A stretch of DNA of 18,894 bases from Candidatus Poribacteria bacterium (GTDB taxonomy: Bacteria > Abyssobacteria > SURF-5), in contig JACRIR010000099.1 in assembly GCA_016215705.1 (NCBI GenBank), positions 1-18,894 of the forward strand, in the 5' to 3' direction. Positions 5,948 through 18,859 of this stretch are shown here, in pieces (position 1 is the stretch's first letter; the number at the start of each line of letters is the position of its first letter). A program made the position numbers and the translations under genes. The notes under the pieces were generated by a model. That model worked only from the letters and a program-made list of their open reading frames with translations. It was not told the origin of the DNA and ran no database searches.

Positions 5948-7171
5948 GTGCGTTTTATTTCAAAACACATGGAGAAACTTCCTCCATACATGTTTGCGCG
6001 CATAAACCAAATGAAGCTCGATGCGCGCAGAGCCGGAAAAGACGTCATCGACTTAGGTATGGGAAATCCGGACCATCCGACCCCGCAGCATGTGGTAGAC
6101 AAGCTGTGCGAGGTCGTCCGCGACCCGAAATCACACAGGTACTCGGCCTCAAAAGGAATCCCGCACCTTAGACGCGCCGTCACCGAATGGTATGAGAAGC
6201 GTTTCGATGTGAAGCTCGACCCGGAGACCGAGGCCATTGCCGTCATCGGCTCGAAGGAAGGCATTTGCCATCTCTTCCCTGCCGTGCTCGACGAGGGCGA
6301 CCTCGTTCTCGTTCCGAGCCCGAGTTATCCCATACATTACTATAGCGTGGTAATCGCGGGCGGTCATTTGCATGCTGTCCCGCTCACGGCCGAAGGGAAC
6401 TTCATGCCCGACCTCTCGAAGGTAACGCACGAGGTATACCCCAAGCCCAAAATCCTCATTCTGAGTTATCCGAACAACCCGACAACGCAGGTTGTTGACC
6501 TCGCGTTTTTCGAGGAAGTCGTCAAATTCGCCAAACGCGAGGAAATCCTTATAGTCCATGACCTCGCATACAGCGAGATATGTTTTGACGGCTATAAAGC
6601 GCCAAGTTTCTTGCAGGCAAAAGGCGCCAAGGACGTCGGGATAGAATTCTACTCCATGTCGAAGACGTATAATATGGCGGGATGGCGGGTCGGCTTTGCT
6701 CTCGGAAACCGGCACGTGATAGCCGCGCTCGCAAAACTCAAGAGTTATTACGATTATGGCATATTCACTCCGATACAGGTGGCTGCAATTGCGGCCCTGC
6801 GCGGCGACCAGTCGTGCGTTGACGAAGTGAACGCAATATACCGGCGCCGCCGTGACGTCCTGGTGAACGGCCTCAACAACCTCGGATGGAATGTGCCGCT
6901 CCCGAAGGCGACCATGTACGTGTGGGCGCCCCTTCCGGAAGAATTCCGGCGACTGGGTTCGATGAAATTCTCTGAGATACTCCTCGAGGAAGCCCTTGTT
7001 GCAACGTCGCCCGGAATCGGCTTCGGGGCTTCAGGCGAAGGATACTTGAGGCTCGCGCTCGTTGAAAACGAACATCGCATAAAACAGGCGCTGCGCGGAA
7101 TCAAAAAGATGACCGAAAACAGAAGAGCAAACGGGGTCACGGCCTCCGCGAAGAAGAGCGCCAAGTCATAG
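5948..7171 (+). CDS. alaC: Alanine aminotransferase, AlaC-like (class I/II PLP aminotransferase)
   Basis: A 407-residue fold-type I PLP enzyme. It follows the sequence of E. coli AlaC (glutamate-pyruvate aminotransferase) closely along its length: KLPPYMF near the N-terminus, [44 protein letters not shown], and the PLP-lysine motif [12 protein letters not shown] with Lys239. It would transfer an amino group between alanine/pyruvate and glutamate/2-oxoglutarate. LL-diaminopimelate aminotransferases are related, but the match to AlaC is better. The chosen start is a GTG at 5948 preceded by GAGGGG (5932-5937); an internal ATG at 5969 is an alternative. The C-terminus ends in a basic Lys/Ala/Ser tail not needed by the fold. 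The next gene, aspC, begins 19 bp downstream. Confidence 0.9.
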
Positions 7172-7190
7172 AATGGAGAGGAACTAACGC

Positions 7191-8375
7191 ATGGGTCTTT
7201 CAGAAAGAGCACGCTGCCTCAAGCCGTCTTCGACGCTTGCAATTACCGCCAAAGCCAGAGCAATGAAGGCGGAAGGAATTGACGTCATCGGATTCGGAGC
7301 GGGAGAGCCGGACTTCGACACGCCGGAGCATATCAAGGCGGCTGCCATCGAAGCGATAAGAAGCGGGTTCACCAAATATACGGACGCCTCCGGCATGCCT
7401 GAGCTGAAGGATGCCGTGGCGAGAAAATTCAAACGGGACAATGGCATCGATTACGAACGCAGCGAGATAACCATCGGGTGTGGCGCCAAACAGATCATCT
7501 ACAACATTTTCCAGGTAATCTGCGACCCGGGCGATGAAGTTCTGATTCCAGCCCCCTTCTGGGTAAGCTATCCCGAGCAGGTTTGCCTTGCCAACGGCGC
7601 GCCCAGGATTATTGAAACGACCAACTTCAAGATGTCGGCCAAAGAATTCGAGGCAGCCATCACTCCCAAAACAAAAATGCTCGTTATCAACAGCCCATCG
7701 AACCCGACGGGCGCCGTCTACAACAGAAAAGAGCTCGAGGCTATCGCCGAGGTCGCGCTGAAAAATCGCATAATGCTTCTTTCGGACGAATGCTATGAGA
7801 AGATACTTTACGACGGAAACGAACACCACAGCATCGCTTCGTTCGACAAAGGACTCAAAGAACTCACATTCACCGTCAACGCAGTCTCAAAGACGTATTC
7901 AATGACCGGCTGGCGCATAGGTTATGCAGGCGGACCGGCGAATTACATAAAAGCAATCGGCAACATGACAAGCCAATCCACCTCGAATCCCACTTCTATA
8001 TCGCAGAAAGCGTCAATAGCGGCGCTTGACGGAGATTATAGCTTTGTGGAAAAGATGGTCAAGGAGTTTGACAGACGCCGCCGAATCCTGGCGGAAGGCC
8101 TGAATGAGTGCCTGAAAGAAACAACCCCCTTGCCGGGAGGCGCTTTCTATTACTTCCCGAGTATGGCGGCCTTCATAGACAGGCAAATCAAGGGAACAGT
8201 CATAAGAACCGCCGACGATTTCTGCAAGGTGCTCATCGAAAAGGCGCGCGTGGCGATCGTGCCCGGCACGGATTTCGGCGATTCCACCCGGATACGCTTC
8301 TCGTTTGTGACCTCAGAGAAGAACATCCGTGAGGGCCTGAGCAGGATTGCCGATTGTGTCAGCGAGGCAAAATGA
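7191..8375 (+). CDS. aspC: Aspartate aminotransferase (class I, subgroup Ib type)
   Basis: A 394-residue PLP enzyme that interconverts aspartate/2-oxoglutarate and oxaloacetate/glutamate. It resembles the Thermus/Bacillus-type (Ib) aspartate aminotransferases: GFGAGEPDFDTPEHI, KYTDASGMPELKDA, PAPFWVSYPEQ, NSPSNPTGAVY, SDECYEKILYDG, and the PLP lysine in VSKTYSMTGWR (Lys234). Some Ib enzymes also use prephenate. A GGAGAGGA stretch (7175-7182) precedes the ATG. The stop is separated by a single base from the homoserine dehydrogenase start. Aspartate made here is the precursor of that enzyme's pathway, so co-expression makes metabolic sense. It is not a duplicate of the upstream aminotransferase, as the two are from different subfamilies. 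Confidence 0.92.
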   Translation: MGLSERARCLKPSSTLAITAKARAMKAEGIDVIGFGAGEPDFDTPEHIKAAAIEAIRSGFTKYTDASGMPELKDAVARKFKRDNGIDYERSEITIGCGAKQIIYNIFQVICDPGDEVLIPAPFWVSYPEQVCLANGAPRIIETTNFKMSAKEFEAAITPKTKMLVINSPSNPTGAVYNRKELEAIAEVALKNRIMLLSDECYEKILYDGNEHHSIASFDKGLKELTFTVNAVSKTYSMTGWRIGYAGGPANYIKAIGNMTSQSTSNPTSISQKASIAALDGDYSFVEKMVKEFDRRRRILAEGLNECLKETTPLPGGAFYYFPSMAAFIDRQIKGTVIRTADDFCKVLIEKARVAIVPGTDFGDSTRIRFSFVTSEKNIREGLSRIADCVSEAK

Positions 8376-8376
8376 A

Positions 8377-9663
8377 ATGAAAGAAATAGGCGTTGGCATC
8401 ATAGGGCTGGGCATTGTCGGCTCAGGCGTTTACGAAACGCTGATGCAGCACTCCGAGGAAATCGCGCGGCGGACCGGCGTGAAGCTCGCTGTTCGCAAAG
8501 TCGCGGACCTCGACGAATCGCGCAGCCGGACACTGGGAGTCCCCGACGGCGTATTTACAAAGAACGCCAAGGACATCATCAATAACTCTTCGGTCGATAT
8601 CGTCGTCGAGCTTATCGGCGGCTATTCGCCAGCGGGCGAATACATTGTCGATTCACTCAATAACCACAAGCATGTCGTGACCGCGAACAAAGCGCTTCTG
8701 GCCAAACAGGGCGCAGAACTGGCGGAACTCGCGTCGAAAAACAACGTCGATCTCTATTTCGAGGCAAGCGTCGCCGGCGGAATCCCGATTATCAAAGCTC
8801 TTCGGGAAGGACTCGCCGGCAACAACATCAACTACATCTATGGTATCGTGAACGGAACCTGCAACTATATTCTCACCCGAATGACATATGAGAAAATGGG
8901 TTTCGAGCGAGCTCTCAAGGAGGCTCAGAAAAAAGGCTTCGCCGAGGCGAACCCCACGCTCGATATCGAGGGCGACGACTCGGCCCATAAGCTGATGATT
9001 CTAGCTTCCATCGCGTTCAACACGCGAATCGATCTTTCGGATATTCACGTTGAAGGCATAACCAAATTGACTCACGAGGACGTCGAGTACGCCGATGATC
9101 TCGGATACGTCATCAAGCTGCTCGCAATTGCGAAGAGAACGGGAAACGAGATCGAGGTTCGAGTGCACCCGACACTCGTGCCCAAGTCCTCGCTTCTGGC
9201 CTACGTGCGCGACGAGTTCAACGCTCTCCTCGTTGACGGCGACATCGTCGGCACGACAATGTACTACGGAAAAGGCGCCGGCAAACTGGCTGCGGCCAGC
9301 GCAATAGTCAGCGACATCATCGACGTCGGCAAGAACATACAATTCGGCTCGCCGCTCCGCGTCAAGCCGTTTGCCCATGCTAACAACTGCAAGATAAAGA
9401 ATATAGAAGAAATAAGGTCGCTCTATTATATCCGCTTCACCGTCCTGGATACCCCCGGGGTGCTCGGCCACATTTCAAGCGTTCTGGGAAAACACGGGAT
9501 AAGCATCGCGTCGGTCATCCAGAAAGCCCAGCATCACGGGAAACATGTGCCGGTCGTAATGATGACGCATGAGGCTTTAGAGCGTGATATAAGGAATGCC
9601 CTCACCGAAATTGATACGCTTAACAGCATTAAGGAAAAGAGCGCCCTCATCAGGATAGCCTGA
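8377..9663 (+). CDS. hom: Homoserine dehydrogenase
   Basis: A 428-residue enzyme that reduces aspartate-4-semialdehyde to homoserine, the branch point toward threonine and methionine. The NAD(P)-binding motif GLGIVG is at 10-15, HKHVVTANKALLA follows, and the catalytic core has EASVAGGIPI, GIVNGTCNYIL and NPTLDIEGDDSAHK with the catalytic Lys205. A C-terminal ACT domain (about 350-425, beginning YYIRFTVLDTPGVLG) suggests allosteric feedback, typically by threonine. It is the monofunctional ACT-containing type, not fused to aspartokinase. The ATG at 8377 lies one base after the aspC stop, which implies translational coupling. An upstream TTG in frame would overlap aspC and is less likely. Aspartokinase, homoserine kinase and threonine synthase are not in the window. 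Confidence 0.96.
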   Translation: MKEIGVGIIGLGIVGSGVYETLMQHSEEIARRTGVKLAVRKVADLDESRSRTLGVPDGVFTKNAKDIINNSSVDIVVELIGGYSPAGEYIVDSLNNHKHVVTANKALLAKQGAELAELASKNNVDLYFEASVAGGIPIIKALREGLAGNNINYIYGIVNGTCNYILTRMTYEKMGFERALKEAQKKGFAEANPTLDIEGDDSAHKLMILASIAFNTRIDLSDIHVEGITKLTHEDVEYADDLGYVIKLLAIAKRTGNEIEVRVHPTLVPKSSLLAYVRDEFNALLVDGDIVGTTMYYGKGAGKLAAASAIVSDIIDVGKNIQFGSPLRVKPFAHANNCKIKNIEEIRSLYYIRFTVLDTPGVLGHISSVLGKHGISIASVIQKAQHHGKHVPVVMMTHEALERDIRNALTEIDTLNSIKEKSALIRIA

Positions 9664-9681: not shown

Positions 9682-10668
9682 ATGGGAAAACGATACATAA
9701 ACGAACTTGCGGAAGGCGACAGAGTCGTCTCTCACTTCCTCGTCCAATCGAAACAACTTCTCACCACGAGGTCCGGCAAACCTTACATAAGCCTGATCCT
9801 CCAGGATAAGACCGGCAGTGTTTCCGCCAAGCTCTGGGACAACGCTTACGAGTTCTATGATAAGTTCAAGAACAACGATATCGTAAAGATAGACGCGGCA
9901 GTTGAATTGTACAACAAGGAATTGCAGCTCGCAGTCAGGAGGCTGCGGACAAGCGAGCCGGGCGAGTTCGATCTCTCTGATTTCCTCCGTCAGTCGGTCC
10001 ACAACGTCGAAGAGATGATGCTCGAGTTGCGCACGTATATCGAAAGCCTCGATAATCCCCACTTGAAAGCGCTCCTGAACGCATTCTTCGATGATGCCGA
10101 TCTGGTGAAACAGTTCAAGGCGTCGCCGGCGGCGCGAAGCATACACCACGTCTGCGTCGGCGGCTTGCTCGAGCACACGCTTTCGACCGTTCGCATCTGC
10201 GAGTACCTCACGAACCACTATGAGAGTCTGAACGCAGACCTGCTGATAACGATGGCGATTCTCCACGACATCGGCAAAGTCCGTGAGATCGAGGCCCTGC
10301 CGTCGGTTAACTACACCGAAGAGGGGAACCTGCTCGGCCACATCACCATCGGTATTCAGATGATGGATGAGAGAATCGCGCGGATACCAGGGTTTCCTTT
10401 GAAACTTCGGATGCTCGTCGAGCACATGATGCTTTCGCACCACGGACACTCCGACTGGGGCTCCCCCCGTCCACCGATGTTTCTCGAGGCTGAAATTCTG
10501 CACCGTGCCGACGACTTGGATGTCAAGGTCGATATAATTCGAAGGGCGGTTTCCGAGGACCGAGACCACGAGTCACCATGGACGGCGTATCAGAAAGCAC
10601 TCGAGCGTATTCTCTACAAGAAACCAACCTATGAGACGGACGTGTCTCCGCTCGAAAGCCCTGATTGA
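9682..10668 (+). CDS. yhaM: 3'-5' exoribonuclease YhaM-type (OB-fold plus HD domain)
   Basis: A 328-residue cytosolic protein matching YhaM/CbfA exoribonucleases over its full length. Residues about 10-95 form an OB-fold nucleic-acid-binding domain (SLILQDKTGSVSAKLWD). Residues about 150-290 are an HD metal-dependent phosphohydrolase domain with His165 (LLEH), HD at 195-196 in ILHDIGK, and the SHHG-x-x-x-WGSP-x-PP block near 253-264. Bacillus YhaM trims RNA, and some homologues act on DNA. It starts 18 bp after hom. The binding site is weak (GGGA at 9667-9670), so translation may depend on coupling. An RNase inside an amino acid gene cluster has no obvious pathway logic and is probably shared transcription. 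Confidence 0.92.
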   Translation: MGKRYINELAEGDRVVSHFLVQSKQLLTTRSGKPYISLILQDKTGSVSAKLWDNAYEFYDKFKNNDIVKIDAAVELYNKELQLAVRRLRTSEPGEFDLSDFLRQSVHNVEEMMLELRTYIESLDNPHLKALLNAFFDDADLVKQFKASPAARSIHHVCVGGLLEHTLSTVRICEYLTNHYESLNADLLITMAILHDIGKVREIEALPSVNYTEEGNLLGHITIGIQMMDERIARIPGFPLKLRMLVEHMMLSHHGHSDWGSPRPPMFLEAEILHRADDLDVKVDIIRRAVSEDRDHESPWTAYQKALERILYKKPTYETDVSPLESPD

Positions 10669-10699
10669 TTCTTTTGCCGAAACGGAGGCAGATGATCTC

Positions 10700-13636
10700 A
10701 TGAAACAACCAACCAAATTGTTCGCGTGTGCCCTGTTTGGCGCTCTCCTCATCTCGTTCATCGTTTGTTCCCCGCGCAATGCTATGGCGCAAATGGTCGC
10801 CGAGCGCATCACCGCTGCCAACGCCGACAAATATCTCTTCGAGTGTCCGGACAGGATGGGCGGCATAGGCGATTGGTACCTGTCGAACGGTGTCATCTGG
10901 GCGATAATCGACGACGTCTCGAACCGGAATATCATATCAGCTTCCGGCGGCACGCTCGTGGATATCGGACTGGCGGGACGCGGCGAACAGTTCACGCAGA
11001 TGATGCCGCTGCTCAATATGACGCGCGATTTGATTGTCCCGTTTGATGAGATACATGCCGACACCGGCGAAAACTCGGCGTCGATAACCGTTTCCACAAC
11101 ACATGGACTCCGGCCGGAGCGCCCGGGCCTTGGAGTGTTGAGTGAGGAAGCTGCAAAGAAAGTCTCTGTAGTTACCGAATACCGGCTGGTGGCTGGCGAA
11201 AACTTCCTGCGTCTGAAAACAACCATAACGAATAATGGAGAGAAGAAGGCTCGGATTTTTCACGTCGCAGACGTGATATATTGGGGCGACGATACTCTGA
11301 AACCGTTTGGCGCGAGTGAAAGACGGCTCGGCAACGCGCATGGCACACCCCGCGGGTTTCAGCATCCACTCCTGGACACCGAGAGCCCACTTACCATAGT
11401 AAAAGCAATTGGTGGTTTCACTTATATCGCGGCGGGTGGCGTGGAGGGAATGCCACCGGTATCGTACGGCGTGTGTTCGCCCACCGAATACGCAAAACAT
11501 AAACTGCTTTGGGCCGTGAACGACCGGCTGGTCTCGGCGATCGGGGCATTCACGGGGGAATTCAATCGGACGTTGGACCTGTGGAAAACCCCGTTTTTCG
11601 GCATACCCCCCGGTGGACAATTCATCTATGAACGGGTGATGGCTGCCGGTGACCGTAACGACGTGGCATCCGCGACAGACGCTCTCTTGCGCCTGCTCGG
11701 CAAAACCGACGGCAACGCCGGAGTCACCGGCAAGGTTGAGCCGTCTGATGCCGACACCAGCGTATTGATAGTCACCGAAGGCGACGAACTCCCCGTCACC
11801 GAAATCAGACCCTTGCGCGAGGGCGAGCGGGCAGGTATCGCGCGTTGCCTCCTTCCACCTGGCAAATACGTGGCAAAGATAAGTTCCGCTCAACGCGACC
11901 CGAACTTGAAGACTCCTCAACCCGAGCCGATAACAAGGAATTTCACAGTCTCCGAAAGCGGTTTTGCGGATTTTGAAAAAGTGCAACTGCCACAGCAGTC
12001 GAAGCTGGCAGTCGAGGTTTTCGAAGGCCGGCGTCATCTGTCCGCCAGAGTCATCATTCGCGGGACACAAGGAACCCCGGACCCTGAGTTGGGCACAGAC
12101 CTCCTCGGTTTCACTGTCGACGGGAAACCGGCGCCGTCGACGTATCGGGCGAATTGGCTGCTGCTCGACGGCAACGAAACCGCCCCGGTCCGCGTCGGCC
12201 TCCGACCCGGAAAATACATCGTTTACGCCACTCATGGTTTCGAGTATTCCGTCGCGCAAAAGGAGGTTGACCTCAGCGTGCCTGGCAGCGAGGCCGGCAT
12301 CACCTTATCGCTCGAAAGAGCCATTGACGGCCGTGGAATGGTGAGTGGAGATTTTCACGTGCATTCCGCGCCAAGCATGGACAGCGCAGTCTCGTTGGAG
12401 CAGCGAGTGCTCTCCTTCGTGGCGGACGGAGTGGACGTGCTTATCGCGACGGATCACGACCAACTGACGGATTTCGCGCCCATCGTCTCCGGGATGAACC
12501 TCTCGGATCGTATCACATCGATTGTTGGAGTCGAGGCGACCTCGATGCTACAAGCGCGCCCCACCCCGTTCACCATCGGACATTACAACGCATGGCCGCT
12601 GCGCTACAATCCGTCGTTGCCCAGGCACGGGATGCCGCCCGATGAGGGAGTCAGGCCGCGAGATTTGTTCGACCGCCTCAGACAAGTCGCCGACGGCGAT
12701 TCGTTGGTTCAAGTGAATCACGGACGCTCAGGAACCCCTGACGGCGAAGCTTCATATTTCAATGCCCTCGGCACGGACTTCAAGAAACCCCTGGCATATA
12801 ACCCATCCAAGGCGCTGACCGACAGCCCGAACAGCCTGCTCCTGGCCGCAAACGCAAACGGCACACGTGATATCGATTTCGACGCGATGGAACTGCTCAA
12901 CGGCTCCTCTTATAGTGATTATCTTCTCCTTCGGGCCGACTGGTTCAGTCTGCTCAATCAGGGATACCTGAAAACCGGCACGGCCAATTCGGATACGCAT
13001 ACCAAGGCGAACGTGGGTGGATATCCTCGCAACTACATCATGCTTGATGATCCGGAGGCGGAACGAGCAGACGCCAAACAACTCGTGGCGCAAATCAAGA
13101 AACACAAAATCGTAGGGACGACAGGCCCGGTCATTAAGCTCAATGTGAACGCGCAAGCCGGCATCGGCGACACAATTACGGTGAATGACCAAAACGTGAA
13201 TCTCAACATAAAGGTGCTCGCCGCTCCGTGGGTGCCGCTTGACGAGGTGCGAGTTTTTGCCAATGGCGTGAGAATAGAAACTTTCAAAACCGGTCCTCAA
13301 ACGAACGTCGTTCGCCTTGACCGCAGTGTTCCCATACCCCTCGAAAAAGATGCATGGCTTGTGGCCGAAGCGACAACTTCCAATCGGACGAAATCACAAA
13401 TACCAGAGCCTCCCGGCGGGCTCTATAACATTGTTGCGCCGGACTTTGTGCCACTTGCATTCACGAACCCCATCTTTGTCGACGCAGACGGAAACGGCCG
13501 ATATGATCCTCCCGGTGTGCCCTCGGTGGTCGAAGCCTCGGAGCCGCCATGGCGGGTGAAAGCTTCCATCGTAGCGACTTTTCTTGCCACAGCATTTGTC
13601 ATCGGATACATAAGACGAAAGCGCGCGGGCGCCTGA
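10700..13636 (+). CDS. Exported, C-terminally anchored CehA/McbA-type PHP metallohydrolase
   Basis: A 978-residue protein. The N-terminus is a signal peptide (basic MKQPTK, hydrophobic 7-23, AMA-Q cleavage site at 30/31). Residues about 31-540 form a large beta-rich region with no catalytic motif that I recognise. From about 545 comes a PHP-type metallohydrolase domain: DFHVHS with HVH at 553-555, ATDHD at 583-587, VNHGRSG with His674, and NSDTH with Asp765/His767. This is the CehA/McbA branch (some members hydrolyse carbaryl; most are uncharacterised). After it comes a beta-sandwich-like stretch, a calcium-loop-like DADGNGRYD (928-936), a final membrane segment (about 955-971) and a basic RRKR tail. 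It is probably anchored outside the cytoplasmic membrane. The start at 10700 is preferred because the signal peptide begins there, with GGAGG 11 nt upstream. The substrate is unknown; phosphoester or cyclic amide/ester hydrolysis are both possible. Confidence 0.85.
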   Translation: MKQPTKLFACALFGALLISFIVCSPRNAMAQMVAERITAANADKYLFECPDRMGGIGDWYLSNGVIWAIIDDVSNRNIISASGGTLVDIGLAGRGEQFTQMMPLLNMTRDLIVPFDEIHADTGENSASITVSTTHGLRPERPGLGVLSEEAAKKVSVVTEYRLVAGENFLRLKTTITNNGEKKARIFHVADVIYWGDDTLKPFGASERRLGNAHGTPRGFQHPLLDTESPLTIVKAIGGFTYIAAGGVEGMPPVSYGVCSPTEYAKHKLLWAVNDRLVSAIGAFTGEFNRTLDLWKTPFFGIPPGGQFIYERVMAAGDRNDVASATDALLRLLGKTDGNAGVTGKVEPSDADTSVLIVTEGDELPVTEIRPLREGERAGIARCLLPPGKYVAKISSAQRDPNLKTPQPEPITRNFTVSESGFADFEKVQLPQQSKLAVEVFEGRRHLSARVIIRGTQGTPDPELGTDLLGFTVDGKPAPSTYRANWLLLDGNETAPVRVGLRPGKYIVYATHGFEYSVAQKEVDLSVPGSEAGITLSLERAIDGRGMVSGDFHVHSAPSMDSAVSLEQRVLSFVADGVDVLIATDHDQLTDFAPIVSGMNLSDRITSIVGVEATSMLQARPTPFTIGHYNAWPLRYNPSLPRHGMPPDEGVRPRDLFDRLRQVADGDSLVQVNHGRSGTPDGEASYFNALGTDFKKPLAYNPSKALTDSPNSLLLAANANGTRDIDFDAMELLNGSSYSDYLLLRADWFSLLNQGYLKTGTANSDTHTKANVGGYPRNYIMLDDPEAERADAKQLVAQIKKHKIVGTTGPVIKLNVNAQAGIGDTITVNDQNVNLNIKVLAAPWVPLDEVRVFANGVRIETFKTGPQTNVVRLDRSVPIPLEKDAWLVAEATTSNRTKSQIPEPPGGLYNIVAPDFVPLAFTNPIFVDADGNGRYDPPGVPSVVEASEPPWRVKASIVATFLATAFVIGYIRRKRAGA

Positions 13637-13828: not shown

Positions 13829-14347
13829 ATGAAACCCATCATTCATCCGAGCGTCTTTGTGGCGGAAGGCGCGCAGATTTGGGGAAACGTTGAGATAGGA
13901 GCAGGTTCGAGCGTGTGGTTCGGAGCTGTTATCAGGGGAGATGAAGGGAAAATACTCATTGGTAAGGATACAAATATTCAGGATCAATGCGTTATACACA
14001 GTGATCTCGGCGCACCGGTGGTAATCGGCAATCACGTCACCGTAGGTCATGGTACAGTCATCAGGTCATGCCAAATCGGCGACAACGTCATGATAGGTAT
14101 GCATGCAACCATTATGTCGGGCGTCGCGATAGGAAAAAACAGTGTTGTGGGCGCCCATTCGCTGATAAAATACAATCACAGATTCGACGCCAATTCCATG
14201 ATAATCGGCGCCCCGGCAAAAAAGGTCCGTGAAACAACAGGAGAGGAAACGCAATTGTCGGGGATCGCATGCGACGTTTACAGGCATCTTGTGACAGAAT
14301 ACAAGGGAGGCCTAATAAAGCCGTATGATGCAAAACCTCAACCATGA
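13829..14347 (+). CDS. Gamma-carbonic-anhydrase-family protein (left-handed beta-helix), altered metal site
   Basis: A 172-residue hexapeptide-repeat protein of the gamma-carbonic anhydrase (CamH/YrdA/PaaY) family, which forms trimers with zinc or iron sites between subunits. Family marks are SVWFGAVIRGDEG, NIQDQCVIHSD with metal ligand His57, and VTVGHGTVIRSC with ligand His74. In active relatives a third ligand His lies five residues after the second (GH-x4-H, usually LHGC). Here that position is Arg79. A nearby His92 (GMHAT) replaces the usual Gly and could conceivably compensate. AAGGAGA (13814-13820) lies 8 nt before the ATG. The fold is certain; carbonic anhydrase activity is doubtful, and an acyltransferase-like, scaffolding or ferripyochelin-binding-type role remains open. 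It stands as a single gene between a large inverted repeat and a 251-bp gap. Confidence 0.88.
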   Translation: MKPIIHPSVFVAEGAQIWGNVEIGAGSSVWFGAVIRGDEGKILIGKDTNIQDQCVIHSDLGAPVVIGNHVTVGHGTVIRSCQIGDNVMIGMHATIMSGVAIGKNSVVGAHSLIKYNHRFDANSMIIGAPAKKVRETTGEETQLSGIACDVYRHLVTEYKGGLIKPYDAKPQP

Positions 14348-14598: not shown

Positions 14599-17058
14599 AT
14601 GGCGACCCTGACAAGCGATTTACGAAAGCGACTGGTGCGTCTCGCTTCGCGGAGAATAGACTCGCTTATTGAATTTCTCGAAGAGGAAACTGTTGAGAGC
14701 GGCATTGTGGATAGGCTCAATCCTTTCAGGCCCCAAAAACCGATTGACACTGAGGCCATCGTTCATGAGGTAATGGCGCGATTGGGAGATGAACTTCCCT
14801 CGAACACGAACTGGCGTCGCATCGAGTCCGAGGTGAGGGACATACTTCCGACCTATAATGTTGAAACACACAAGCGCTATCGAGCAATAGCATATTTCCT
14901 CCTCGACCTCTTTTTCGATCACTCCGGTTTTTCGAGTTTTTTCACCGAGAGGCCCTCGGATGTCGCCAACCTGAAATTGATTCCCGCCGCCCCAACTATC
15001 AGCCGTGTCATAGCGGCGAACCATTCGTCGAATATCGACGACATTCTGGTGGGCGATCTGGCGGACTCTTTGAGCCTCGGGTTGGGCCACTTCGCCGCCG
15101 GTGCAAACCTGATGTTCTTGCCGCAGGTCGAGCGCATAATGAAGGAACTCAACGTAATAAAGGTAAAGCGCTCGCTGGGCGAAGGAAACGAAGCCAAAGC
15201 ATACAAGACGATACTTGAGAAGGTATGCGAGGCCCTGACAGACAGGGGCGAAGATTTCATCATCTTCCCTGAAGCCAATAACCGGCAGGGCGCCCGCAGC
15301 CGCAATGGCACTCTGCGGCTGCCAGAGCGTCTGCGGGTAGTGGACGGAATCCTTGATTCGGCCAAGGACGCCATGGTCATACCTATAGCGCTTTCCTTCT
15401 CGAGAGTGCCGGAGTACTACAAGCTGGTACACGGACGCGGCGCGTACTACTTCCTGCGCCATCGGAGGCGTCCGTTCCGCCTGAGGCGCGACTACGGCAA
15501 TGGGCAAGGGACATTGCAGCTCTTGACCCACAGCGTCCTCATGAGTTACCGTGACATATACGGGCGGGCATATGCCTGCGTCGGCGAACCATTTTCAATC
15601 AAGGAATTCCTGTGGAACCATCCTGAGCCCACCGAACCCGCCCGCATCGTCGCCGAAGAAAGCATGCGACGCATCGCGAAAGTTAAGAAGGTCCTGCCAA
15701 GTCATATCGTGGCCGAAGCAATCGAGGGAAGCAACAGGATTTCCACCCCCTACCTCCTGCAACAGATACAGACGGAGATTGAGAAGGTCATCAAGTATCA
15801 CCGCGACACGTTCGGCGCCGACCCCAACTTCTCATCCGAATTCGAGATGGGACCCCGAATGGTGATGGAGGTCGGACTGAGGGAATTGGGACTGATGAAG
15901 ATCATCAGCCGCGGGCGCGTGTTTTACAGAAGCCGGATTCTGGTGAACGACATCCCTGCCCTGGCCTACTACGGGAACATGAGCGATCACCGGCTATACT
16001 CGCCCGATTACGATGATAAGGTTTGCGTCATCGGCGCGGGCCAATGGGGGTATACGCTCGCCTACATCATCGGAAACAAGTTTCTCGAGGACCCCGCCTA
16101 TCGCCACCACAGCATTGTCGTTTACGATACGCGCAAGGAGATAACGGAATCCATCAAAAACAAGGGGGTGCACCCCCAGTTTTTCAAGGGAGTGGATGTT
16201 CCGCCGAAAATCGTCTATCCGAAGTTCTCCTACAAGGATGCGATAGGCGGATCCAAGGTGGTCATCGTGGTTACGCCGTCCAGCCACTTCGAGGAAGTGA
16301 TCGACAATGTGTGTAAGTACGCCTCGCGAGACCTCGATCTCATCATTGCAACAAAGGGATTCTCACATGAGACCGCGGACCTTCTGCCTGTCGTGGCGCG
16401 AACAAGAATCGAAAAGGCCAGGCTCGCTCACGAAATCCATATTGCCATCCTTTCGGGCGCAAATATTGCGTCGGAAGTGATTCGCGGCGAAGTCTGCTCG
16501 ACACAACTCGCCGGCTCGAAACCTGATCGCCTCGCCAGGCTCAAGCGCTTGATCGAGAACCCCCGGTTCATCGTGCATGTCTCGACCGACCCGATAGGCA
16601 CGTCGTTGGCCGGTGCGGCCAAGAATCCGTACTCGACAATATACGCGGCGGCAAAGGCTTTCGGAATGGGAGAGAATTATCTCGGCGAGTTCATGATGGC
16701 AGCGACAGAAGAGATCGTGCGTCTGGGGACGGCTCTCGGGGCCAATCCGAAGACATTCACTGAAAGCCATGCGTGGTGGCCCGATTTCCATGCGACTTCC
16801 ATGGCCGGCCGCTCGAGCAAATTCGGAAGCGTTCTCGGACAGAAGCGCCCTGCTCGAAAGACGCTCCAGGTCTTCACGGAGAGAAACGAAACCATCGAAA
16901 CATTCGATTCAATAGCGTCCCTGCACCGCCTCGCGCAAAGGACCGGCGTTAAGATGCCCATCGTCGAGCTAGGCTACCAACTCATTCGCGAAGACGCGGA
17001 ACTCACCAAGGCGAAGCTCGAACAAGCAATCCTGCGCCAACCTCGAGAAAAAGCCTGA
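14599..17058 (+). CDS. Fusion: PlsB/GNPAT-type acyltransferase + NAD(P)-dependent glycerol-3-phosphate dehydrogenase
   Basis: One uninterrupted 819-residue frame joins two lipid enzymes. Residues about 110-370 are an acyltransferase with motif I NHSSNID (HX4D: His142, Asp147), AAGANLMFLP as in PlsB, the KR-containing motif II (NVIKVKR) and motif III FPEANNR (223-225 FPE). It should acylate glycerol-3-phosphate (or DHAP) at sn-1. Residues about 370-470 link the halves. From about 474 comes a GpsA/GPD1-like dehydrogenase: GAGQWG (479-484), Lys586 (ATKGF), GANIASEV (620-627), catalytic Lys675 in AKN, and Asp729/Arg738 in the C-terminal substrate site. This half reduces DHAP to sn-glycerol-3-phosphate, so a single chain could carry DHAP to 1-acyl-glycerol-3-phosphate. 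AGGTGA lies 7 nt before the ATG. The acyltransferase part is much shorter than E. coli PlsB (about 807 residues). The following gene is an acyl-CoA synthetase, which would supply acyl donors. Confidence 0.92.
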   Translation: MATLTSDLRKRLVRLASRRIDSLIEFLEEETVESGIVDRLNPFRPQKPIDTEAIVHEVMARLGDELPSNTNWRRIESEVRDILPTYNVETHKRYRAIAYFLLDLFFDHSGFSSFFTERPSDVANLKLIPAAPTISRVIAANHSSNIDDILVGDLADSLSLGLGHFAAGANLMFLPQVERIMKELNVIKVKRSLGEGNEAKAYKTILEKVCEALTDRGEDFIIFPEANNRQGARSRNGTLRLPERLRVVDGILDSAKDAMVIPIALSFSRVPEYYKLVHGRGAYYFLRHRRRPFRLRRDYGNGQGTLQLLTHSVLMSYRDIYGRAYACVGEPFSIKEFLWNHPEPTEPARIVAEESMRRIAKVKKVLPSHIVAEAIEGSNRISTPYLLQQIQTEIEKVIKYHRDTFGADPNFSSEFEMGPRMVMEVGLRELGLMKIISRGRVFYRSRILVNDIPALAYYGNMSDHRLYSPDYDDKVCVIGAGQWGYTLAYIIGNKFLEDPAYRHHSIVVYDTRKEITESIKNKGVHPQFFKGVDVPPKIVYPKFSYKDAIGGSKVVIVVTPSSHFEEVIDNVCKYASRDLDLIIATKGFSHETADLLPVVARTRIEKARLAHEIHIAILSGANIASEVIRGEVCSTQLAGSKPDRLARLKRLIENPRFIVHVSTDPIGTSLAGAAKNPYSTIYAAAKAFGMGENYLGEFMMAATEEIVRLGTALGANPKTFTESHAWWPDFHATSMAGRSSKFGSVLGQKRPARKTLQVFTERNETIETFDSIASLHRLAQRTGVKMPIVELGYQLIREDAELTKAKLEQAILRQPREKA

Positions 17059-17094: not shown

Positions 17095-17148
17095 ACCCCG
17101 CAGATTGCCCTGACTCATATTGCATATCTCTCCCGGCTCACCAGAAAC

Positions 17149-17154
17149 AGGAGA
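17149..17154 (+). promoter_or_regulatory. Ribosome binding site with unusually short spacing
   Basis: AGGAGA ends two bases before the ATG at 17156, closer than the usual 5-9 nt. No other ATG or GTG with a better site fits the conserved N-terminus, and an upstream TTG (17120) has no binding site. Either translation is weak or the true start is non-standard. Confidence 0.4.
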
Positions 17155-17155
17155 A

Positions 17156-18859
17156 ATGCACACGATCCTCAAAGACGCTGATCGCCCTTGGTTCGCGCAT
17201 TATGATTCCAATGTCCCAAGGTCGCTCGACTACCCCGATCTAACCCTCTATCAGATGTTCGACAAGGCGCGGCATGATTTTGCTTCCTCGACCGCGACAA
17301 TCTTCTACGGCTCCAAACACACCTACGCTCGCATCGGCGCGGATACTGACTCCTTTGCCGGCGGTCTCAGAAGGCTCGGAGTCACTCGGGGCGACCGCGT
17401 CGCGATCATGTTGCCGAACTGTCCGCAATTCATTGTCGCGTTCTACGCGATACTGAAGCTGGGCGCCGTTGTGGTTCCGACGAATCCGCTCTACGTCGAG
17501 CGGGAACTCGAACACCAGCTTAACGATTCGGGCGCGAAGGTTATCGTTGCGCTTGATCTCTTGCTTTCCCGTATTCAGAACGTCCGGCAAAAGACCAGTC
17601 TTCAACACGTCATCCTGACCAGTATTTCAGAAGAGATGTCTCCTCTCTACAGGATTCTCTATAGACTCAAGATGCGCAAACAAGGCGTGCGCGCGAGCAC
17701 TGAAAAGATGCCGGACGTAATATGGTTCAGGGAGTTATTCGACAAGACCGGCGCCCAGAACCCGAAGGACGAAGGACATCCCGACGACCTCGCAATGCTG
17801 CAATACACGGGCGGGACGACCGGCCTCTCGAAGGGCGCGATGCTCACGCACAGGAACGTTGTCGCAAACGTCGAGCAGAATGTCGCGTGGCGCTCCAGAG
17901 ACCTGACTCCCGGCAAAAACACTATTTTCTGTGTGCTGCCATTCTTCCACGTTTACGGATTGACCGGCACACTTTGCTGCAGCGTTCGCGTGGGCGCACG
18001 AATGGTTCTTATGCCCCGTTTTGATGTCAAAGACACGCTGAAGGCTATACACAAATACAGGCCCGAGCTTTTCGCGGCGGTTCCCACAATATTGGTTTCG
18101 CTCAATTCCTATCCCGATCTGGACAAGTATAGGCTCGATTCCATCAAGAGCTGCAACTGTGGCGCAGCGCCATTGCCGGTCGAAGTGCTCGAGCAGTTCC
18201 AGAAAAGGACGGGCGCAAAGATTCTCGAGGGATACGGCCTGAGTGAGGCGTCACCCGGCACTCACAGCAATCCGTACAGTGGCATGTATAAACAGGGAAG
18301 CGTCGGTATCCCGCTGCCGGATACCGATTCGAAGATTGTCGACATGGAGACAGGCGAACGTGAACTTCCCGTGGGCGAGCCTGGCGAGCTTATCATCCTC
18401 GGACCACAGGTGATGAAAGGATATTGGAACCAGCCTAAAGAGACGGCGGCGGCGCTTCGCGACGGATGGTTATACACGGGCGATATAGCAAAGATGGATT
18501 CCGATGGCTACTTTTATATTGTTGACCGGAAGAAGGACATGATAATCGCCGGAGGCTATAACATCTATCCGCGTGAGGTGGACGAAATCCTGTTCCAGAA
18601 CCCTAAGATCAAAGAAGCGGTTGCAGTCGGCATTCCAGACACGTATCGCGGCGAGACGGTGAAGGCGTTTGTGGTCTTGAAAGACGGCGAGACCGCGACC
18701 GAAGATGAAATAATTCGGTTCTGCCGCGAACGTCTGGCCCGATACAAAGCGCCGACCGTGGTGGAATTCCGATCCGAGTTGCCGAAAACGCTGGTAGGAA
18801 AGATATTGAGGAAAGCGCTGAGAGAAGAGGAATCGAAGAAGCAGGCACAGGTAAAGTAA
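17156..18859 (+). CDS. fadD: Long-chain fatty acid--CoA ligase (FadD-like acyl-CoA synthetase)
   Basis: A 567-residue member of the ANL adenylate-forming superfamily. It activates fatty acids to acyl-CoA via acyl-AMP. The phosphate-binding loop YTGGTTGLSKG is at 217-227. The adenine and aromatic motif YGLSEASPGTH, the hinge-region block DGWLYTGDIAKMDSDGY, and DRKKDMIIAGGYNIYP follow. The catalytic lysine is Lys549 in TLVGKILRK. Length and order match FadD-type enzymes, and the long-chain specificity is inferred from family resemblance. There is no signal peptide; such enzymes act at the inner face of the membrane. It follows the acyltransferase/G3P-dehydrogenase fusion by 97 bp containing a promoter. 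It could feed acyl-CoA to that fusion or serve beta-oxidation. The gene is complete. Confidence 0.93.
   Translation: MHTILKDADRPWFAHYDSNVPRSLDYPDLTLYQMFDKARHDFASSTATIFYGSKHTYARIGADTDSFAGGLRRLGVTRGDRVAIMLPNCPQFIVAFYAILKLGAVVVPTNPLYVERELEHQLNDSGAKVIVALDLLLSRIQNVRQKTSLQHVILTSISEEMSPLYRILYRLKMRKQGVRASTEKMPDVIWFRELFDKTGAQNPKDEGHPDDLAMLQYTGGTTGLSKGAMLTHRNVVANVEQNVAWRSRDLTPGKNTIFCVLPFFHVYGLTGTLCCSVRVGARMVLMPRFDVKDTLKAIHKYRPELFAAVPTILVSLNSYPDLDKYRLDSIKSCNCGAAPLPVEVLEQFQKRTGAKILEGYGLSEASPGTHSNPYSGMYKQGSVGIPLPDTDSKIVDMETGERELPVGEPGELIILGPQVMKGYWNQPKETAAALRDGWLYTGDIAKMDSDGYFYIVDRKKDMIIAGGYNIYPREVDEILFQNPKIKEAVAVGIPDTYRGETVKAFVVLKDGETATEDEIIRFCRERLARYKAPTVVEFRSELPKTLVGKILRKALREEESKKQAQVK

Follow-up and report, generated by a model that had tools for sequence, protein, structure and literature searches.

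In bacteria, lipid stereochemistry is set by the dehydrogenase that forms glycerol-3-phosphate, and carbon is committed to membranes by the acylation after it. Does a single gene of Candidatus Abyssobacteria (a name also spelled Abyssubacteria [PMC6121073]), a little-known deep-subsurface lineage, join a backbone-making enzyme and an acyltransferase of the type that adds the first fatty acid in one protein, and what would such a protein do? The locus lies in an 18,894-nt stretch of DNA (the window), which makes up one contig, C8, in a draft genome of 5.47 Mb and 92% completeness.

A single frame joins two enzyme families

The frame is uninterrupted, running from an ATG at 14599 to a TGA at 17056 to 17058 and encoding 819 amino acids with no internal stops; a Shine-Dalgarno (SD)-like AGGTGA lies 7 to 12 nt 5′ of the start codon. 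An earlier note made from the letters of the DNA had proposed a single frame here, and it is borne out by an orthologous frame in two further genera. Pfam matches to PF01553, PF01210, and PF07479 all exceed the curated cutoffs. Residues 1 to 469 are PlsB/GPAT-like, and residues 471 to 819 are a GpsA/GPD1-type dehydrogenase (Table 1). Hardly any linker separates the modules, since the GPAT_C-like match runs to residue 466 and that of the dehydrogenase begins at 474. AlphaFold2, run on a two-sequence alignment, returned a mean pLDDT of 33 and no usable structure model.

All three genomes of the phylum in the collection, which represent three genera of one family and are 91 to 98% complete, carry the fusion at full length and with the same junction (74 to 75% identity); in Candidatus Abyssobacteria bacterium SURF_17 (QZKI01000094.1), the gene product is 75% identical. 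Separately encoded halves in close relatives, which by the earlier note would have marked the fusion as an artefact, did not turn up: the halves proved to be fused in all three genera. For the acyltransferase segment, the junction, and the dehydrogenase segment alike, pairwise pS was about 0.65 to 0.85 and pN about 0.12 to 0.17; pN was 0.25 to 0.31 in the first 110 residues. Low pN combined with pS near saturation in every segment indicates purifying selection on both halves and on the junction.

The window comes from a draft of 270 contigs, so an assembly artefact, or a chance frame joining two adjacent genes, had to be considered. The recurrence of the same fusion and junction in three separately assembled genera, with saturated synonymous sites and a conserved protein, rules out chance and assembly error for practical purposes, and the probability that we leave to them is negligible. 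The fusion is a genuine, lineage-specific union of two known enzyme families.

Table 1. Features of the fusion gene and its neighbors in the window (aa, residues of the fusion protein)
Feature	Position	Strand	Evidence or remark
Gamma-carbonic-anhydrase-like hexapeptide protein, upstream neighbor	13829..14347	+	Upstream in SURF_17 too
CDS, PlsB-like acyltransferase/GpsA-type dehydrogenase fusion	14599..17058	+	Full-length orthologues in 2 other genera
PlsB/GPAT-like module, aa 1-469	14599..16005	+	hhalign vs PlsB alignment, E = 1.6e-17; NCBIfam PRK03355 GPAT, 4.5e-7
PF01553 acyltransferase domain, aa 136-265	15004..15393	+	Pfam 1.9e-11, 44.3 bits vs cutoff of 23
Motif I, H142-SSNI-D147 (HX4D)	15022..15039	+	Aligned to E. 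coli PlsB HRSHMD
Motif III region, FPE-ANNRQ-GARSRNG, aa 223-237	15265..15309	+	PlsB FVE-GGRSRTG; 5 extra residues in the fusion
Motif IV, IPIALSFSRVPE, aa 261-272	15379..15414	+	Aligned with PlsB IPIYIGYEHVME
GPAT_C-like region, aa 319-466, ending AYYGNMSDH like the PlsB C-terminal YYxNxxxH	15553..15996	+	PF19277 E = 0.003, 19 bits, under cutoff of 25
PF01210 NAD-dependent G3P dehydrogenase N-terminal domain, aa 474-640	16018..16518	+	Pfam 2.2e-29, 102.9 bits vs 23.1
Dinucleotide-binding GAGQWG, aa 479-484	16033..16050	+	GxGxWG, comparison with GpsA sequences
Conserved Lys586	16354..16356	+	Invariant across GpsA compared
PF07479 G3P dehydrogenase C-terminal domain, aa 664-804	16588..17010	+	Pfam 2.2e-20, 73.7 bits vs 25
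Catalytic Lys675-Asn676	16621..16626	+	Invariant across GpsA compared
Substrate-site stretch, D729..T733..R738-S739	16783..16815	+	Ser739 replaces otherwise invariant Asn
Long-chain acyl-CoA ligase (FadD-like), directly downstream	17120..18859	+	Not adjacent in two relatives

The acyltransferase half is PlsB-like

Profile searches placed the first half with PlsB rather than with PlsC, as had been proposed. With hhalign, it matched a PlsB alignment at E = 1.6e-17 over 269 columns, versus 0.0011 (probability 20%) for PlsC-type proteins, a comparison set drawn from the window's own genome. NCBIfam matches to this half were all weak (PRK03355 [GPAT], 4.5e-7; plsB, 3.7e-4; PlsC-type TIGR00530, 6.1e-4), and the plsB equivalog cutoff was missed (19.1 bits versus 618.5). 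PF19277 (GPAT_C) was matched weakly in all three orthologues, with E values of about 0.001 to 0.003 and 17 to 19 bits, under the cutoff of 25. The profile of the first halves also matched the AYYGNMSDH-type C terminus of a free-standing PlsB-like protein of 518 residues from an unrelated genome (L075:2250-3806). Another PlsB-like protein (L076:603-3335; 911 residues) appears to contain a pair of PlsB-type acyltransferase repeats, of which the first has a degenerate motif III.

In an alignment with E. coli PlsB plus three further PlsB-like proteins, the matching blocks, fusion first and E. coli PlsB second, are HSSNID/HRSHMD, AAGANLMFLP/AAGINLNFWP, VKRS/IRRT, GARSRNG/GGRSRTG, and IPIALSFSRVPE/IPIYIGYEHVME. 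The motif positions named in the earlier note are all correct, both here (H142-X4-D147 and F223-P224-E225) and in the dehydrogenase half (G479-A-G-Q-W-G484, K586, K675, D729, and R738). In motif III, the consensus E-G-x-R-S-R-x-G is interrupted by five residues, ANNRQ, between Glu225 and GARSRNG. This insertion is the one clear oddity of the acyltransferase half.

The dehydrogenase half keeps its catalytic residues and diverges at the substrate site

A column-by-column comparison with 48 GpsA sequences (47 from other genomes and that of E. coli) revealed that the fusion keeps GxGxWG, Lys586 (Lys120 in GPD1 numbering), Lys675-Asn676, Asp729, Thr733, Arg738, and Glu767. The residue after Arg738 is Ser739 in all three fusions and Asn (Asn270 in GPD1 numbering) in 48 of 48 GpsA sequences and in three aligned solved homologues. 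Further substitutions near the substrate site are WWPD for GLGD and, after the catalytic Lys-Asn, YAAA for GAG. The alignment also showed that GANIASEV and GGR of this half are common to eukaryotic GPD1. The half forms a long isolated branch, with 22 to 31% identity to all other members compared, and because of this long branch the tree does not settle its origin. It missed all NCBIfam equivalog and subfamily cutoffs by far (best score, 175.6 bits versus 257). The claim that both halves are complete thus holds for the cited residues and the Pfam domains and has to be qualified for the motif III insertion and for the Ser that takes the place of Asn beside the substrate-site Arg738.

These deviations bear on the order of the reactions. 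The wider PlsB superfamily includes dihydroxyacetone phosphate (DHAP) acyltransferases, and the PlsB-type half might acylate DHAP first, leaving a remodeled GpsA-type half to reduce 1-acyl-DHAP to lysophosphatidate. Domain order would then equal reaction order, as in eukaryotic ether-lipid metabolism, and acylation before reduction would account for the single chain. The strong divergence at the dehydrogenase substrate site (Ser739, WWPD, and YAAA) and the altered motif III are suggestive of this route, not diagnostic. Against it, the residues that hold DHAP are all kept except the Asn, several of the other changes (GANIASEV and GGR) occur in eukaryotic GPD1 as well, and the literature searched yielded no bacterial acyl-DHAP reductase of the glycerol-3-phosphate dehydrogenase (GPDH) family. 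To our knowledge, an acyl-DHAP route has not been described from bacteria, and we consider it unlikely here; if it were true, membrane lipid synthesis in the lineage need not pass via free glycerol-3-phosphate.

The fusion is apparently the only candidate for both steps

The fusion is the one PF07479 protein in the window's genome. No other protein of the three phylum genomes gives a strong PF01210 match (103 to 110 bits for the fusion, 31 bits or less for the next best) or has a GPAT_C-like region above noise. PlsX and PlsY had no match in any of these genomes (91 to 98% complete), and the same search was positive in 8 of 14 control genomes. The search for stand-alone gpsA, plsX, and plsY that the earlier note had suggested thus found none in the three genomes. 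On these profile matches, the lineage apparently has no candidate besides the fusion for either the dehydrogenase step or the first acylation, and the fusion accounts for how lipid synthesis could begin there when the common route through PlsX/PlsY is missing.

Non-canonical active-site sequence in both halves could also mean that one half is non-catalytic and serves the other by sensing, by scaffolding, or by anchoring it to the membrane; the likeliest forms would be an acyltransferase that is damped or a regulator derived from a dehydrogenase. Across the three genera, however, neither half varies at its key catalytic residues, each half is under purifying selection, and the searches turned up no gpsA, plsX, or plsY that could take over, so that we regard a non-catalytic half as distinctly unlikely.

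Five PF01553 proteins besides the fusion are encoded in the window's genome, and one of them might acylate glycerol-3-phosphate first while the acyltransferase half of the fusion serves another acceptor (e.g., a lysophospholipid). One of the five is a canonical PlsC (TIGR00530 over cutoff); the other four match only lysophospholipid-like or PlsC-type models or have no assignment. We found no support for any of the five as the GPAT, since none is GPAT-like and GPAT_C is absent from them. As fusion to a GpsA also points to glycerol-3-phosphate or DHAP as the acceptor, a different acceptor seems very improbable. Nor do we take the fusion to be the sole source of glycerol-3-phosphate, because glycerol kinase exceeds its cutoff in all three phylum genomes and glycerol could also feed the acyltransferase half.

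Elsewhere in the window's genome, a 601-residue protein (L005:601-2406; contig C26) combines a PEMT/ICMT-like methyltransferase region (aa 101 to 182) with a PlsC-like acyltransferase (aa 229 to 354) and, by these matches, is another unusual lipid-enzyme fusion. Two related PlsC-like acyltransferases (L003:817-2193 and L004:1204-2421; contigs C56 and C251), weakly similar to diacylglycerol acyltransferase, have long charged N-terminal extensions that are probably disordered.

Gene neighborhood

The acyl-CoA ligase encoded directly downstream of the fusion is a possible source of the acyl-CoA donor. Its place is taken in the two relatives by a protein whose sequence, on inspection by eye, looks rubrerythrin-like, so the two relatives do not share the linkage to the ligase. 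In the stretch between the genes there is a promoter-like site; the scan that gave it produced, in total, as many sites as expected by chance. Farther upstream, two tandem class I/II aminotransferases, followed by an ACT-domain homoserine dehydrogenase, are closely packed or overlapping (positions 5948 to 9663), and a 1,001-residue protein (10631 to 13636) has a PHP-domain match below cutoff at residues 574 to 639 and no Pfam match in the remainder.

Proposed mechanism

We think it probable that the protein is a single-chain, two-step enzyme that converts DHAP via glycerol-3-phosphate to lysophosphatidate. The C-terminal GpsA-type module would use DHAP and NAD(P)H to form sn-glycerol-3-phosphate, and the N-terminal PlsB-type module would transfer an acyl group from acyl-ACP or acyl-CoA to give 1-acyl-glycerol-3-phosphate, which a separate PlsC would turn into phosphatidate. 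The fusion would stand in for separate gpsA and plsB or plsX/plsY genes in the lineage. That both halves come from families catalyzing consecutive reactions supports this two-step reading, as do the retained catalytic motifs, the lack of PlsX, PlsY, and any second strong GpsA match, the PlsC of the window's genome, the plsY-gpsA linkage in other bacteria, the adjacent acyl-CoA ligase, and the purifying selection. With so tight a junction, a fixed arrangement and channeling are both plausible. The motif III insertion, the long GPDH branch, Ser739, YAAA, the NCBIfam scores, and the alternative supply of glycerol-3-phosphate via glycerol kinase weigh against the two-step reading. We infer both activities, their order, and any channeling from sequence, and because the active-site sequence deviates in both halves, conversion of DHAP to lysophosphatidate via glycerol-3-phosphate is likely rather than established. 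With the fusion found phylum-wide and PlsX/PlsY missing, substrate channeling becomes directly testable.

Distribution and comparison with known systems

How widely does the fusion occur? The taxonomic check suggested in the earlier note found it in three genera of the phylum; among 383 other genomes (about 260 families), no match across both halves was listed, the matches being to the dehydrogenase half or to separate weak acyltransferases only. This sample is broad and covers <0.5% of the genome collection, and the named genomes were scanned with two short peptides, so distant fusions may exist elsewhere. A second survey, built around a different genome, covered nearly the same genomes and contributed little. 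Apparent PlsC-GpsA fusions in other genomes (GpsA matches in frames of 426 to 606 residues) were rejected, as the extensions look like GC-rich translation in the wrong frame and not like acyltransferase. Scans of viral contigs for relatives gave nothing useful. In the open literature searched, no account of this fusion turned up, and a review that treats GpsA, GlpA/GlpD, GlpK, PlsB, PlsX/PlsY, and PlsC as separate enzymes contains neither the word "fusion" nor the word "fused" (PMC6431249).

In other bacteria, the PlsY signature GSGNxGxTN lies within about 1.5 kb of gpsA at at least 19 of 61 loci (e.g., L047, L011, L052, L096, and L097), a count made by regular expression that is probably a lower bound; the two steps are thus commonly linked genetically. 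Such plsY-gpsA neighborhoods resemble the fusion in linking glycerol-3-phosphate formation to acylation, whereas they consist of separate genes and use an unrelated, acyl-phosphate-dependent acyltransferase, PlsY.

Compared with E. coli PlsB/GPAT (TIGR03703; PF01553 plus PF19277), the acyltransferase half has recognizable HX4D, AAGxNLxFxP, GxRSRxG, motif IV, and C-terminal YYxNxxxH elements. It differs in its length (about 470 residues versus 807), the five-residue motif III insertion, and the attached dehydrogenase, and it falls far under the TIGR03703 and PF19277 cutoffs. Like GpsA/GPD1, the second half has full-length PF01210 and PF07479 domains over cutoff and the catalytic Lys-Asn, Asp, Thr, and Arg; unlike them, it has the low identity and long branch described above, a Ser next to Arg738 at the position where Asn is otherwise invariant, and an N-terminal fusion partner.

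In eukaryotic ether-lipid synthesis, GNPAT, a DHAP acyltransferase of the PlsB superfamily, and then acyl-DHAP reductase make lysophosphatidate from DHAP. That system and the fusion both pair a PlsB-superfamily acyltransferase with a reductase, but GNPAT and acyl-DHAP reductase are separate proteins, and the known reductase is a short-chain dehydrogenase rather than a GPDH.
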